Shown in pieces: positions 42,831 through 45,529 of a DNA stretch of 64,000 nucleotides. The translations under genes and the position numbers were made by a program. The notes beneath the pieces were generated by a model. It saw only the letters and a program-made list of their open reading frames with translations, did not search any database and was not told where the DNA came from. The DNA comes from Pricia antarctica (lineage in GTDB: Bacteria > Bacteroidota > Bacteroidia > Flavobacteriales > Flavobacteriaceae), in contig NZ_FNAO01000006.1 of assembly GCF_900101815.1 (NCBI RefSeq), forward strand, positions 310,001 through 374,000, read 5' to 3'. The stretch's first letter is position 1. Every line of letters starts with the position of its first letter.

Positions 42831-43415
42831 TTATTGGGATATGCTATTTTCCAAGAAGCATAGCAGTTGATGTATGGCTTTTCCCCGGTGGCCGATTTTG
42901 TTTTTTGTTGCTACGGAAAGTTCCGCAAAGGTTTTTTCGTAGCCCGAAGGCCTGAAGATAGGGTCGTAGCCGAAACCGCCGCTTCCTCTTTTTTCGTTTA
43001 TGATTTCACCTTCTACCGAGCCTGTGAAGGTATGGCGTTCTTGGTTAAGGTTGAGGGCGATTACAGTCGTAAATCTTGCTTTTCTGTCGTTTTTACCTTG
43101 TAGTGCTGCTAGTAGTTTATCCATATTGTCCTCCGAGCTTTTTTGGTCTCCGGCATATCGAGCAGAAAGCACGCCTGGCATACCATGAAGGGCGTCTACT
43201 AGAAGTCCCGTATCATCGGCAAAACAGGATAAGTCAAAATTATCGGTCACGTAATCTGCTTTTATTCTGGCGTTCTGCTCCAATGTTTTTCCTGTTTCGG
43301 GGATTTCTACCGTACATCCGATATCGGCCAGAGCCACCAGGTCTATATGCGCAGGTATCAGTTTTTTGACTTCAGCGAATTTGTTTTGATTGTGTGTTGC
43401 GAAGACGAGTTTCAT
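42831..43415 (-). CDS. rdgB: Non-canonical purine NTP pyrophosphatase (RdgB/HAM1)
   Basis: Removes dITP, ITP and XTP from the nucleotide pool by splitting off pyrophosphate. The N-terminal ATHNQNKFAEVKKL (6-19), the metal-binding SCFADDTGLLVDAL and GMPGVLSARYAG, and the C-terminal GYDPIFRPSGYEKTFAEL are characteristic, and GHRGKAI closes the site. 194 residues, cytoplasmic. Its start codon is only 26 bases from that of the divergent ICMT-like gene, so their promoters must overlap. The stop lies 125 bases before the helicase gene on the same strand. Confidence 0.95.
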   Translation of the reverse strand: MKLVFATHNQNKFAEVKKLIPAHIDLVALADIGCTVEIPETGKTLEQNARIKADYVTDNFDLSCFADDTGLLVDALHGMPGVLSARYAGDQKSSEDNMDKLLAALQGKNDRKARFTTVIALNLNQERHTFTGSVEGEIINEKRGSGGFGYDPIFRPSGYEKTFAELSVATKNKIGHRGKAIHQLLCFLENSISQ

Positions 43416-43441
43416 TCTTGTAAAAATAGTAAATTTAGCGC

Positions 43442-43894
43442 ATGAAGCTAAAAATTCCCCCGGGCGTTGTTTTTTTGAGTTTCGGTTTGTTGATGTACCT
43501 ACTCGCCGAATTTCTTCCTGTCGGATATTTTGATTTTTTTGGACGCCATCATCTTATGATTGTCTTGGCCATTTCCGCTATACTAATTGCAGGAGTGGCA
43601 CTTTTCCAGTTTTACGCTGCAAATACCACGATAGATCCTACACAACCCGGTAAAACAAAAAAATTGGTAACCAATGGAATCTATGCCTATACCCGAAACC
43701 CGATGTATCTTGCAATGCTGTTACTGTTGCTAGCGTGGGGCGTTTGGCTGGGCAATGCGTTCAATACCCTTTTGGCCGCAGGTTTTGTTGCCTATATGAA
43801 CCGATTTCAAATCGAACCCGAAGAGCAGGCGTTAACGAAAATTTTCAATAAAGACTACAAACAATATGGTCTATTGGTCCGAAGATGGTTTTGA
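43442..43894 (+). CDS. Isoprenylcysteine carboxyl methyltransferase (ICMT)-like membrane protein
   Basis: A 150-residue integral membrane protein with four hydrophobic helices. The SAM-binding signature of the ICMT/PEMT group is LVTNGIYAYTRNPMYLAMLL (about 72-91), followed by the helix and the conserved EPEEQALTKIFNKDYKQYG (split at 127-145). Bacterial members have unknown substrates, perhaps lipids or small isoprenoids. It starts 26 bases from the divergent rdgB start. A MITE-like element begins 5 bases after its stop. Confidence 0.88.
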   Translation: MKLKIPPGVVFLSFGLLMYLLAEFLPVGYFDFFGRHHLMIVLAISAILIAGVALFQFYAANTTIDPTQPGKTKKLVTNGIYAYTRNPMYLAMLLLLLAWGVWLGNAFNTLLAAGFVAYMNRFQIEPEEQALTKIFNKDYKQYGLLVRRWF

Positions 43895-44053: not shown

Positions 44054-44127
44054 AATAGCTGGATTTATGGAAATTTGTCGTACACCCATAGAAACTTTTG
44101 GAATAGTTTCCCACGATAAGCATTTTA

Positions 44128-44220
44128 ACTTATATTGCATATTATTAGCTTTTTAGCTTATATAATGAAATATTAGCTAATTCGATTATATATTCATATA
44201 TTAGCGTTTTGACTTATAAT
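44128..44220. promoter_or_regulatory. Putative operator: repeated TTAGCT and ACTTATA motifs before the SatD gene
   Basis: Over 93 bases just before the start there are four TTAGC(T/G) boxes (44145, 44153, 44173, 44201), one inside the palindrome ATTAGCTAAT. Three ACTTATA/GCTTATA boxes occur near 44129, 44157 and 44212. The region is extremely A/T-rich. The SatD product carries an HTH, so these may be its own binding sites. Nothing else is found in the 331-base gap except MITE copy B. Confidence 0.5.
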
Positions 44221-44225
44221 TTGAT

Positions 44226-44840
44226 ATGATAGCGATTATAACGGGCGATATTATTAATTCCGAAAACTATGAGGTTTCCGAGTGGCTCGGCATATTAAAA
44301 AAGTACTTGTCCAATTTTGGTGAATCGCCCACCGACTGGGATGTATACCGGGGCGACGAGTTTCAATTAAAAATACCCCGCGAAGACGTACTTGGTGTGG
44401 CAATACACATCAAAGCTTTGTTAAAGACCATAAAAGGGCTAGATGTACGCATGGGTATCGGCTTGGGCACCGAAACCTTTACAGGTTCAGGGGTCAGTGA
44501 ATCCAACGGGCCTGCGTACCAACGTTCCGGTAGAACTTTCGAATCGTTGAAAGAAGATAAATTGAACCTTACCATCGCAACGGGCAGCGGTTTCTACGAC
44601 GATACCCTGAACCTAATGCTCAAATTGGCCCTCGACTTCATGGATGATTGGAGCCCCGTTTCCGCAGAAATCGTGGTTATGGCCTTTGAACATCCAAAAG
44701 CTTCGCAAGCCGATTTGGCCAAACGGTTGGGCATCCAGCAATCGGCCGTGAGCCAACGCCAAAAAAGGGCGCGTTTAGACCTGGTCTTTGAATTACTTGA
44801 TTATTACGATAAAATTTTAAAAGATCTGAACCCATGCTGA
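44226..44840 (+). CDS. SatD-family protein with C-terminal helix-turn-helix
   Basis: A 204-residue cytoplasmic protein named for the SatD family of acid-tolerance loci; biochemical role unknown. The first strand reads IAIITGDI (Asp8), and a hairpin carries YRGDEFQLKI (41-50), followed by a helix and the strand VRMGIGLG (74-81). This order is similar to the metal-binding strand, GGDEF hairpin and third strand of nucleotide-cyclase palm domains. ESNGPAYQRSGRTFESLK is a conserved SatD segment. Residues 159-182 form a helix-turn-helix (SQADLAKRLGIQQSAVSQRQ). The stop overlaps the DUF3307 gene by 7 bases, so the two are translationally coupled. Confidence 0.85.
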   Translation: MIAIITGDIINSENYEVSEWLGILKKYLSNFGESPTDWDVYRGDEFQLKIPREDVLGVAIHIKALLKTIKGLDVRMGIGLGTETFTGSGVSESNGPAYQRSGRTFESLKEDKLNLTIATGSGFYDDTLNLMLKLALDFMDDWSPVSAEIVVMAFEHPKASQADLAKRLGIQQSAVSQRQKRARLDLVFELLDYYDKILKDLNPC

Positions 44841-45529
44841 TTTTCACGAAACTTCTACTGGCGCATTTAATTGGGGATTTCCTAGTACAGCCAAAACGCT
44901 GGATCGTTCACAAGGAAGCAAACAAGGTCAGATCTAAATATCTATATATACATGTATTGCTACATTTTGTGCTGACCATGATGCTTTTGTGGGATTTGAA
45001 GTACTGGAAACTGGTCTTGATCATTGCCGTTTCCCATTTCATTATCGATTTGGCCAAGCTATACACCACGCCTTTGTTCAGACTGAGGAGCATCCCTTTT
45101 TTCATTGATCAGGTCTTACATTTGGCTGTTTTGTATGCCGTTGCATACTACGGGAATCTGGTAGGGCATACGATTGCCCTGTTCGAAAAACTGGATTGGC
45201 CATTGGTCACCGCCATTGTCTTTGTCACCTTTCCCGCAGCAATCATCATGGGAAAATTGTTGGAAGCTATGGGCGAAAAGATTGAACTGGACCATAAATC
45301 CCTTCCCAATGCGGGAAAATATATCGGTATCATCGAACGCCTTTTTGTTCTGATGTTCATTATTTTAGGACGTTGGGAGGCTATCGGATTATTGATAGGT
45401 GCCAAATCCGTTTTTCGTTTCAATGATTTGAAGGAAAGCAATAATCGGAAGCTCACGGAGTATATCTTGATCGGCACGCTTATGAGTTTCGGTCTTGCCA
45501 TTGTGACCGGTATTATATACAGAGGCTAA
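44834..45529 (+). CDS. DUF3307 multi-pass membrane protein, partner of SatD
   Basis: A 231-residue integral membrane protein with about six helices. Polar residues sit within helices in a metal-site-like pattern: AHLIGDFLVQ (His11, Asp15), HVLLH (His40, His44) and SHFIIDLAK (His68, Asp72), the third repeating the H-x3-D spacing of the first. That resembles membrane-embedded metal-dependent hydrolases, though no activity has been assigned to DUF3307 to my knowledge. It overlaps the SatD gene by 7 bases; DUF3307 often lies beside SatD in Bacteroidota. The downstream 199 bases hold only weak inverted repeats near 45538 and 45582. Confidence 0.87.
   Translation: MLIFTKLLLAHLIGDFLVQPKRWIVHKEANKVRSKYLYIHVLLHFVLTMMLLWDLKYWKLVLIIAVSHFIIDLAKLYTTPLFRLRSIPFFIDQVLHLAVLYAVAYYGNLVGHTIALFEKLDWPLVTAIVFVTFPAAIIMGKLLEAMGEKIELDHKSLPNAGKYIGIIERLFVLMFIILGRWEAIGLLIGAKSVFRFNDLKESNNRKLTEYILIGTLMSFGLAIVTGIIYRG

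Follow-up and report, generated by a model that had tools for sequence, protein, structure and literature searches.

Pycsar systems pair a class III-type pyrimidine cyclase with PycTM or PycTIR, and HipBA is an autoregulated toxin-antitoxin operon whose helix-turn-helix (HTH) acts on dyads. To our knowledge, a fused repressor HTH is a feature of neither CBASS nor Pycsar. In Panoptes (mCpol/OptS and 2TM-beta/OptE), according to excerpts of two reports, the cyclic dinucleotide of a palm enzyme holds a toxic membrane effector off (PMC12657218, PMC12657230), the effector consisting of two TM helices and a C-terminal beta-barrel (PMC12657230). For SatD, the available excerpt of a Tn-seq study describes S. 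pyogenes satD as essential in emm1, emm28 and emm49 strains and as present in only 178 of 249 genomes, i.e. as accessory (PMC11323703). A gene that is accessory yet essential is what one would expect where it holds a harmful partner back. Further mentions of SatD, as excerpted, carry over the acid-tolerance label or describe changes in expression (PMC10326533, PMC10210942, PMC5786311). Among the matches listed for SatD and DUF3307 in the open-licence literature, neither a description of SatD as a palm protein nor one of a SatD-DUF3307 pair was found.

The locus described here lies in the window, that is, the whole 64,000-nucleotide stretch of Pricia antarctica DNA that was analysed. It encodes SatD (204 aa; 44226..44840, + strand; open reading frame, Pfam, AlphaFold2 model), with a cyclase-like palm domain and a C-terminal HTH, and a DUF3307 membrane protein (231 aa; 44834..45529, + strand; Pfam, model) that overlaps it by 7 bases. 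As far as the excerpted sources describe Panoptes, the two loci are alike in combining a small palm protein with two Asp and a membrane partner in two genes. Unlike Panoptes, SatD carries an HTH and has its own operator array, and its palm is nearest to the class III cyclases by sequence. An assignment of SatD as a Panoptes enzyme was rejected, as the partner is predicted to be all helical without a beta-barrel and the HTH is additional; by analogy, SatD may work by a Panoptes-like logic. The class-III-like palm and the membrane partner are reminiscent of Pycsar, and one pair lies beside a 2TM/PycTM-type effector, whereas SatD and its partner have no Pycsar match in PADLOC, and SatD lacks canonical class III residues and includes an HTH. 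HipBA is comparable in the autoregulatory-type HTH and dyads, as judged from sequence, in the tight coupling of the two genes and in a weak similarity of the HTH to HipB, but has no counterpart to the cyclase-like domain with its Asp pair or to a membrane partner with an exchangeable N-terminal domain. The window protein resembles SatD of the streptococcal sat operon at the level of the profile (PF16264), which it matches over nearly its full length at a score just under the cut-off. The highest PF16264 scorers in our set have a short partner consisting of the C-terminal module described below (C-module), whereas the window copy has DUF3307 and the C-module.

A preliminary description of the locus had proposed a palm nucleotide-cyclase plan with a GDEF-like motif for SatD, a coupled membrane protein and a repeat-rich operator. 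Its palm plan, the Asp pair, the linkage to the partner and the conservation of the boxes, further out as geometry, are borne out by the present analysis, while the GDEF reading is not. The fold predicted is not unrelated to the palm, the aspartates have not been lost and the upstream boxes are conserved in close relatives, so that none of the three outcomes that the description had named as speaking against it occurred.

Predicted fold and class of SatD

The translated SatD contains IITGDI with Asp8, RGDEF at residues 42-46 and MGIGLG at residues 76-81, and Pfam places an HTH at its C-terminus, as the preliminary description had listed. Against Pfam SatD (PF16264) the window protein reaches 27.3 bits over residues 2-186, 1.7 bits short of the cut-off of 29, which is exceeded by the homologues of loci L090 (64.3 bits), L087 (60.1 bits) and L039 (54.2 bits). 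The HTH, at about residues 155-190 (44688..44795, + strand; Pfam, model and profile search), is of the sigma-70 region 4 type (28.3 bits vs a Pfam cut-off of 24.1) and weakly similar to HipB (E 0.0043 in a profile search of PDB sequences). A cyclase name is given to the window SatD by neither Pfam nor NCBIfam.

The AlphaFold2 model of SatD, based on 59 aligned sequences, has a mean pLDDT of 97.0. A strand (residues 2-10) is followed by a helix (17-31), a hairpin (38-41/45-51), a second helix (52-67), a strand (73-81), a further helix (96-111) and a last strand (115-118), after which come the HTH helices; the strands fall in the palm domain at residues 1-125 (44226..44600, + strand), delimited by the model and the alignment with the adenylyl cyclase Ma1120. 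In a Foldseek search of the PDB, the top matches were GGDEF, class III cyclase and Cas10 structures, with a best E of 1.5e-3 and no match with E ≤0.001. VIA gave a Z of 12.0 for GTP cyclohydrolase III (rmsd 2.9 over 108), 11.6 for Cmr2/Cas10, 11.0 for a GGDEF domain and 10.9 for a mycobacterial adenylyl cyclase, and the palms of Y-family DNA polymerases, with Z values of 10.0-10.2, were tied with most of the cyclase rows. Since VIA rows differing by no more than 1 Z were treated as tied, the fold alone does not permit a choice among the palms. The prediction and the comparison with GGDEF, cyclase and Cas10 palms (pLDDT 97, Z 10-12) agree with the palm-cyclase plan that had been read from the primary structure, and the N-terminal domain of SatD is predicted with high confidence to be a nucleotide-cyclase-type palm.

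Independently of structure, a search of PDB sequences showed that Ma1120 matches the SatD profile (E 0.00099), with Asp8 aligned on the aspartate of DIEES and Asp44 on that of GDGF. By sequence, the nearest solved palm to SatD is hence that of a class III adenylyl cyclase. With this class SatD shares the predicted palm fold and, by model and alignment, two aspartates of the metal-binding type (DIxxS/T and GD). Canonical class III cyclases also use a substrate Lys before GD and a transition-state Asn/Arg, and this part of the catalytic set is largely missing from SatD: in 249 SatD rows, and with the column correspondence to Ma1120 (positions 40, 98 and 103) taken from our own reading of the alignment, position 40 (Lys in Ma1120) is Ile/Val, position 98 (the Asn column) is Phe/Tyr, and Arg occurs at position 103 in 93 rows. 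Because these residues are missing, the SatD palm may bind a nucleotide without cyclising it, and its chemistry, if any, may differ. Membership in the GGDEF family was considered and rejected. The SatD motif is RGD-x-F rather than GG[DE]EF, with S, E or A at the fourth position, and an hhalign comparison with ten GGDEF proteins gave an E of 0.0012 but a probability of only 7.8%. In place of the GDEF reading, the data give a variable Glu45 and, among solved palms, a closest sequence match to a class III adenylyl cyclase.

The codons of the putative metal ligands lie at 44247..44249 (Asp8, + strand) and within 44349..44357 (Arg42-Gly43-Asp44, + strand; Asp44 being the second ligand). Asp8 and Asp44 are present in all 59 aligned SatDs and each in 248 of 249 in the larger set, a set that, like the locus counts below, includes near-duplicates (L043/L140, L154/L227 and L165/L258 are the same genome twice). 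S12 (245/249) and Q47 (242/249) are similarly well kept. Glu45, whose conservation the preliminary description had proposed to test along with that of the two aspartates, is found in only 10 of the 59 and 72 of the 249 sequences. The sole SatD without both aspartates (L065) also has no partner gene, which is a single case, and the partnerless SatDs of L042 and L072 retain both residues.

The membrane partner and its linkage to SatD

The 7-base overlap and the pairs H11-x3-D15 and H68-x3-D72 noted for the membrane protein were all found. Its DUF3307 match (PF11750) is clear, with 98.2 bits at a cut-off of 23, and covers residues 3-107 only; the name given to the protein in the preliminary description is therefore right for this domain and too narrow for the conserved part, which reaches well past it. 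We distinguish an N-module (DUF3307; residues 1-111; 44834..45166, + strand) and a C-module (residues 122-231; 45197..45526, + strand) outside Pfam DUF3307, with the pattern G..IG..ER...AKS..RF...EY...G...S. In 57 aligned full-length partners, H11, D15, Q19, H68, D72, D92, Q93 and H96 are invariant in the DUF3307 part, and G161, I164, G165, E168, R169, K191, S192, R195, E209, Y210, G214 and S218 in the C-module.

The C-module accompanies nearly every SatD examined, and the N-module is exchanged or absent in some homologues. Across the loci, 224 partner open frames contain both modules, 13 the C-module only and 2 the N-module only, a count in which the frames of L097 represent a split gene, that of L101 is truncated where the locus ends, and those of L083 and L093 are fragments. 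Partners of about 105-160 aa that consist of the C-module only occur in L079, L088, L090, L094, L096 and the haloarchaeal L039, and also in L087 and the plasmids L267 and L268; in L081, L085, L091 and L092 a membrane segment without a match to the DUF3307 profile replaces the N-module. It is thus the C-module, rather than the DUF3307 part that some partners swap or lack, that accompanies SatD constantly. Searches with short C-module proteins gave no Pfam match over threshold (five proteins), no PHROG match (L090 and L039) and no PADLOC match (L039). The model of the full partner is all helical, with a pLDDT of 93.4. Comparison with the PDB gave no convincing match to this fold (Foldseek best E 1.0, VIA best Z 6.5, no PDB sequence match), which does not show that the fold is new.

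A scan for the C-module pattern in one genome per species (84,980 species) yielded at least 592 DUF3307 relatives. In the best 80 of these, which were kept, SatD lies upstream on the same strand without exception; the two genes overlap in 58 loci and lie within 60 bases of each other in 16 (74 together), while among the 6 scored as further apart L151 has an over-extended frame and the others are separated by 64-183 bases. Seen from SatD, a partner match was obtained in 238 of 242 loci, and in 239 when the small partner of L087, missed by the profile, is added, as well as in 7 of 7 further plasmid records. Among 249 Flavobacteriaceae genomes, 148 contain the partner and 150 a strong SatD (E ≤1e-30; another search gave 139), 12 other SatD matches being weak. 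Compared by eye, all 148 genomes with the partner are among the 150, the two with SatD alone being G108 and G152, and a partner without SatD was not seen in any of the 249. The pair also occurs in Proteobacteria, Fusobacterium and haloarchaea. The tight coupling proposed from the single locus thus extends to 80/80 DUF3307 loci kept and 239/242 SatD loci, and the pairing is near-obligatory.

The operator-like array upstream of SatD

Upstream of SatD, a dyad search revealed an array of four 20-bp inverted repeats (7-6-7) with a step of 28 bp. Dyad 1 (GATAAGC-N6-ACTTATA, 44115..44134) starts outside the range covered by the preliminary description, dyad 2 (TATTAGC-N6-GCTTATA, 44143..44162) is the exact consensus, dyad 3 is TATTAGC-N6-GATTATA (44171..44190), and dyad 4 (TATTAGC-N6-ACTTATA, 44199..44218) ends 7 bases 5' of the start codon. 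The TTAGC and CTTATA boxes that had been reported here are present, mostly as half-sites of these four dyads rather than as separate boxes. TTAGC occurs at 44145, 44153, 44173 and 44201 on the + strand and at 44176 on the - strand, compared with 75 observed and 115 expected occurrences (shuffles) on both strands of the whole window. For four TTAGC in 93 bases of one strand, a Poisson estimate gives ~3e-7 to 2e-6, which is optimistic for such an AT-rich stretch; better evidence for the boxes is their conservation.

This was assessed in the 220 bases upstream of 32 close relatives of SatD (51-100% protein identity, the window's own included), using the pattern TAT[TA]AGC-N6-GCT[TA]ATA with up to 3 mismatches. 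The 112 dyads found correspond to 3.5 per gene, whereas dinucleotide shuffles gave 0.61 and flanking sequence 0.13 per 220 bases; the spacer is 6 in 111 of the 112, and the step is 28 in 68 of 80 cases and 29 in 8. Beyond the close relatives the dyad sequence shifts, to TGTTACC-N6-GGTAACA in Proteus and to TTAGCCATAAATGGCTAA in Vibrio, and TTAGC is lost. The geometry persists: a 20-base self-match of at least 16 was found in 175 of 233 upstream regions, 170 of them at 28, 29, 56, 57 or 58 bases, while only 33 of 699 shuffles had such a match at any lag, with no step prominent. Among 24 plasmid or variant copies viewed singly, the best self-match lies at 28 or 29 bases in 18, and 11 of these have at least 16 matches, including the haloarchaeal plasmids L039 and L271 with 29-base steps; the step is absent in five of the 24 (L037, L040, L079, L265 and L269), and L085 shows 48. 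The 28/29-bp step hence recurs from Flavobacteriaceae to haloarchaea, and what was claimed of the boxes holds for their sequence in close relatives and for their spacing further out.

A geometry that is kept while the sequence drifts is as expected from a multimeric self-repressor with a co-evolving HTH. We infer that SatD very probably represses its own operon, and control of the membrane partner by SatD is strongly implied by the position of a dedicated operator before the two-gene operon. The combination of an autoregulatory operator and two-gene coupling, as in type II-like toxin-antitoxin loci, is present here as an operator-like array and a linkage recognised by sequence. Within the genome, exact operator matches were found at satD only, and allowing one mismatch adds the other two array dyads as well as five single sites. 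At two mismatches the genome shows no enrichment of the pattern (93 and 86 matches on the two strands vs 273 and 264 for a reversed control). A dyad-like site about 100 bases 5' of a gene read by eye as ECF sigma factor-like was considered as a regulon candidate and set aside as a possible chance occurrence among the five single sites.

Genomic context, proposed mechanism and alternatives

The nearest genes in the window read as housekeeping genes: an RdgB-like gene, a PEMT-type methyltransferase, named by database search, and a serine-biosynthesis-type dehydrogenase, the first and last being read by eye. In the close relatives the RdgB-like gene is conserved at 31 loci and the methyltransferase at 28, and these chromosomal neighbours suggest a settled role here. 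Most chromosomal copies, the window's included, show no defence context. A PADLOC scan covered 122 adjoining proteins at 62 chromosomal loci, two of which are in restriction operons. Of the 124 families matched, the 25 listed were led by mad3 and mad8, with 3 adjoining proteins each, and by type I restriction models, with 2 each, and 107 proteins four genes off gave nine PADLOC families with one protein each; apart from restriction and mad models, no enrichment of defence genes beside the pair was seen at these 62 loci, which yield no clean figure. Ten SatD and partner proteins gave no match to a CBASS or Pycsar model, their PADLOC matches being of HTH type only (CasR, CARF3, Csa3 and mad1) besides a weak one to PDC-S67 (E 0.051).

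Other copies have a different setting. In L182 the pair adjoins a TOTE-type primase-helicase protein, in L266 GajB lies two genes from the pair, and in the Sphingomonas plasmid L037 the pair adjoins the genes of a 2TM/PycTM-type effector and an E2 protein. The pair makes up much of Klebsiella and E. coli plasmids of 3.8-4.4 kb and part of a 10.3-kb Pseudomonas plasmid; the pair of a 3.77-kb plasmid had no match in the E. coli genome collection. Among phages of INPHARED, neither the SatDs of the window and L090 nor the partner of L183 was matched. In IMG/VR the window SatD had no match, and the DUF3307 alignment had two, L182 and L183.

From the fold prediction, the conserved Asp pair, the linkage, the module structure and the operator geometry, which form the observed basis, we infer restraint, toxicity and a nucleotide ligand, and propose, with a probability of about 0.55, that the SatD pair is a nucleotide-gated self-repressor that restrains its membrane partner. 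A SatD multimer would bind the tandem dyads 5' of its own operon through the C-terminal HTH and repress it. The palm would use Asp8 and Asp44 to hold a metal and bind a nucleoside triphosphate or a related nucleotide, which it may also convert. Both the production and the activity of the partner would be set by SatD's nucleotide state or by a small nucleotide that SatD makes; the partner would normally be silenced by SatD and released when SatD is lost or inhibited. The partner would act via its C-terminal membrane module, the part linked to SatD, and the His/Asp-rich DUF3307 would serve as an output domain that can be exchanged. Such a cyclase-like self-repressor with a near-obligatory partner gives a concrete and testable account of an accessory-but-essential gene.

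Several observations could also be explained by a housekeeping regulator of envelope or stress functions, in which SatD would be a non-catalytic, ligand-sensing repressor tuning the amount of a membrane enzyme or transporter (DUF3307), for example when the cell meets acid or envelope stress. The label 'secretion and acid tolerance' fits such a role, as do the presence of the pair in 139-150 of the 249 Flavobacteriaceae genomes, the conserved neighbours shared by close relatives, the few defence neighbours other than restriction and mad models at the 62 chromosomal loci and the missing class III catalytic residues; the fixed His/Asp set of DUF3307 moreover resembles an intramembrane metal or active site. 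For a housekeeping enzyme, however, it would be odd that 13 partners, with SatD and the C-module retained, have this His/Asp domain swapped or missing, and carriage on plasmids of 3.8 to 10.3 kb, on two IMG/VR contigs and in restriction operons speaks for a different role, as does the finding, in the excerpt cited above, that satD is essential yet accessory in S. pyogenes (PMC11323703). We therefore consider this explanation doubtful, though worth keeping in view.

Activation of the CBASS or Pycsar type, with SatD making a nucleotide upon infection that switches the partner on and kills the cell, would make use of the same palm with its metal Asp pair and of a membrane partner with an exchangeable domain, and would suit the copies near the 2TM/PycTM-type effector and E2, GajB and the TOTE-type protein or inside type I restriction operons. 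It appears unlikely given the fused repressor HTH, which as far as we know is atypical of both systems, and the lack of a CBASS or Pycsar match in PADLOC among the proteins searched. The essentiality of S. pyogenes satD, as excerpted, also points to restraint rather than activation (PMC11323703). It would be compatible, together with the accessory distribution of the gene (PMC11323703, excerpt), with a plain toxin-antitoxin system, in which SatD, as an autoregulating antitoxin, would either bind the partner or do no more than repress it, and the palm would be a dead scaffold. The overlapping genes, the autoregulatory-type operator, the small plasmids and the HTH with its weak likeness to HipB (E 0.0043) all agree with this, but the retention of Asp8 and Asp44 in 248 of 249 sequences is unexpected for a dead scaffold and makes the explanation very improbable.

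The pair, common as it is (148/249 Flavobacteriaceae genomes), is labelled either by the acid-tolerance operon or as of 'unknown function'; it looks like an uncharacterised nucleotide-controlled switch that may serve immunity. Members of the family could now be sought by the unnamed membrane module at the C-terminus of the partner and by the 28/29-bp step that recurs in the operators. A farther-reaching version of the restraint model, which we put forward tentatively, is that SatD and its C-module partner form an immunity or addiction module that is widespread and in which nucleotide signalling is inhibitory. As a fusion of a cyclase-like enzyme with a repressor, SatD would hold a membrane-damaging partner off via its nucleotide product or state, and the partner would be freed when a phage or plasmid attacks this state or a restriction system in which the pair resides. 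If true, the pair would represent a second lineage of Panoptes logic, shared by bacteria and archaea and recognisable by dyads spaced every 28-29 bp.

Only 3 of the 242 loci have the pair flanked by restriction genes, and a further one, L078, has a broken hsdM-like neighbour. In these three, hsdM, hsdS, SatD-DUF3307 and hsdR (Pfam) follow each other on one strand: L050 from Flavobacteriaceae, L146 from a Lentimicrobiaceae MAG and L173 from a Cyclobacteriaceae MAG. In a quick tree of 103 SatDs they occupy three separate positions, which suggests more than one insertion into restriction operons. L050 and L173 have an additional frame separating hsdM from hsdS, and L050 a second one separating hsdS from SatD. 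The end of the DUF3307 frame overlaps the hsdR frame by 4 bases in L146 and by 8 bases in L173; in L050 its stop comes one base ahead of the hsdR frame.

An apparent DUF3307 module on phages

The N-terminal DUF3307 module of the membrane partner of SatD seems to be carried by phages without the rest of the protein. The PHROG family phrog_2470 (PHROG 2470), a family of 'moron' membrane proteins with 119 positions, appears to represent the DUF3307 N-module by itself, and ORF187 of the Ralstonia jumbo phage RsoM2USA is given as a 134-aa DUF3307 protein in PMC8504454. The phage-borne module is possibly a decoy or an inhibitor of the bacterial SatD-partner pair.

Variants of SatD and its partner

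In the partners of four homologous loci (L081, L085, L091, and L092) the C-module is kept, with a different N-terminal segment in place of DUF3307. The SatD of locus L065 has lost both Asp8 and Asp44, and the membrane partner is also absent.

Neighbouring genes

Next to SatD, an RdgB-like gene and a PEMT/ICMT-type methyltransferase gene are found at window positions 42831-43894; their position beside SatD is kept in most close relatives, at 31 and 28 loci, respectively. Among the neighbour proteins of the pair in loci L102-L180 (alignment A7), three match the PADLOC defence-family model mad3 and three match mad8. DUF4365 proteins are located close to SatD in L266 and L267 (Enterobacter plasmid; Agrobacterium pAt).

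A lone dyad elsewhere in the genome

Elsewhere in the genome, a lone SatD-type dyad, TATTAGCGTTTTTACATATA, is observed at positions 1500-1520 of locus L202 (G000:C20:171074-171093), ~100 bases upstream of a putative ECF sigma factor gene. Its occurrence at this place may be due to chance.
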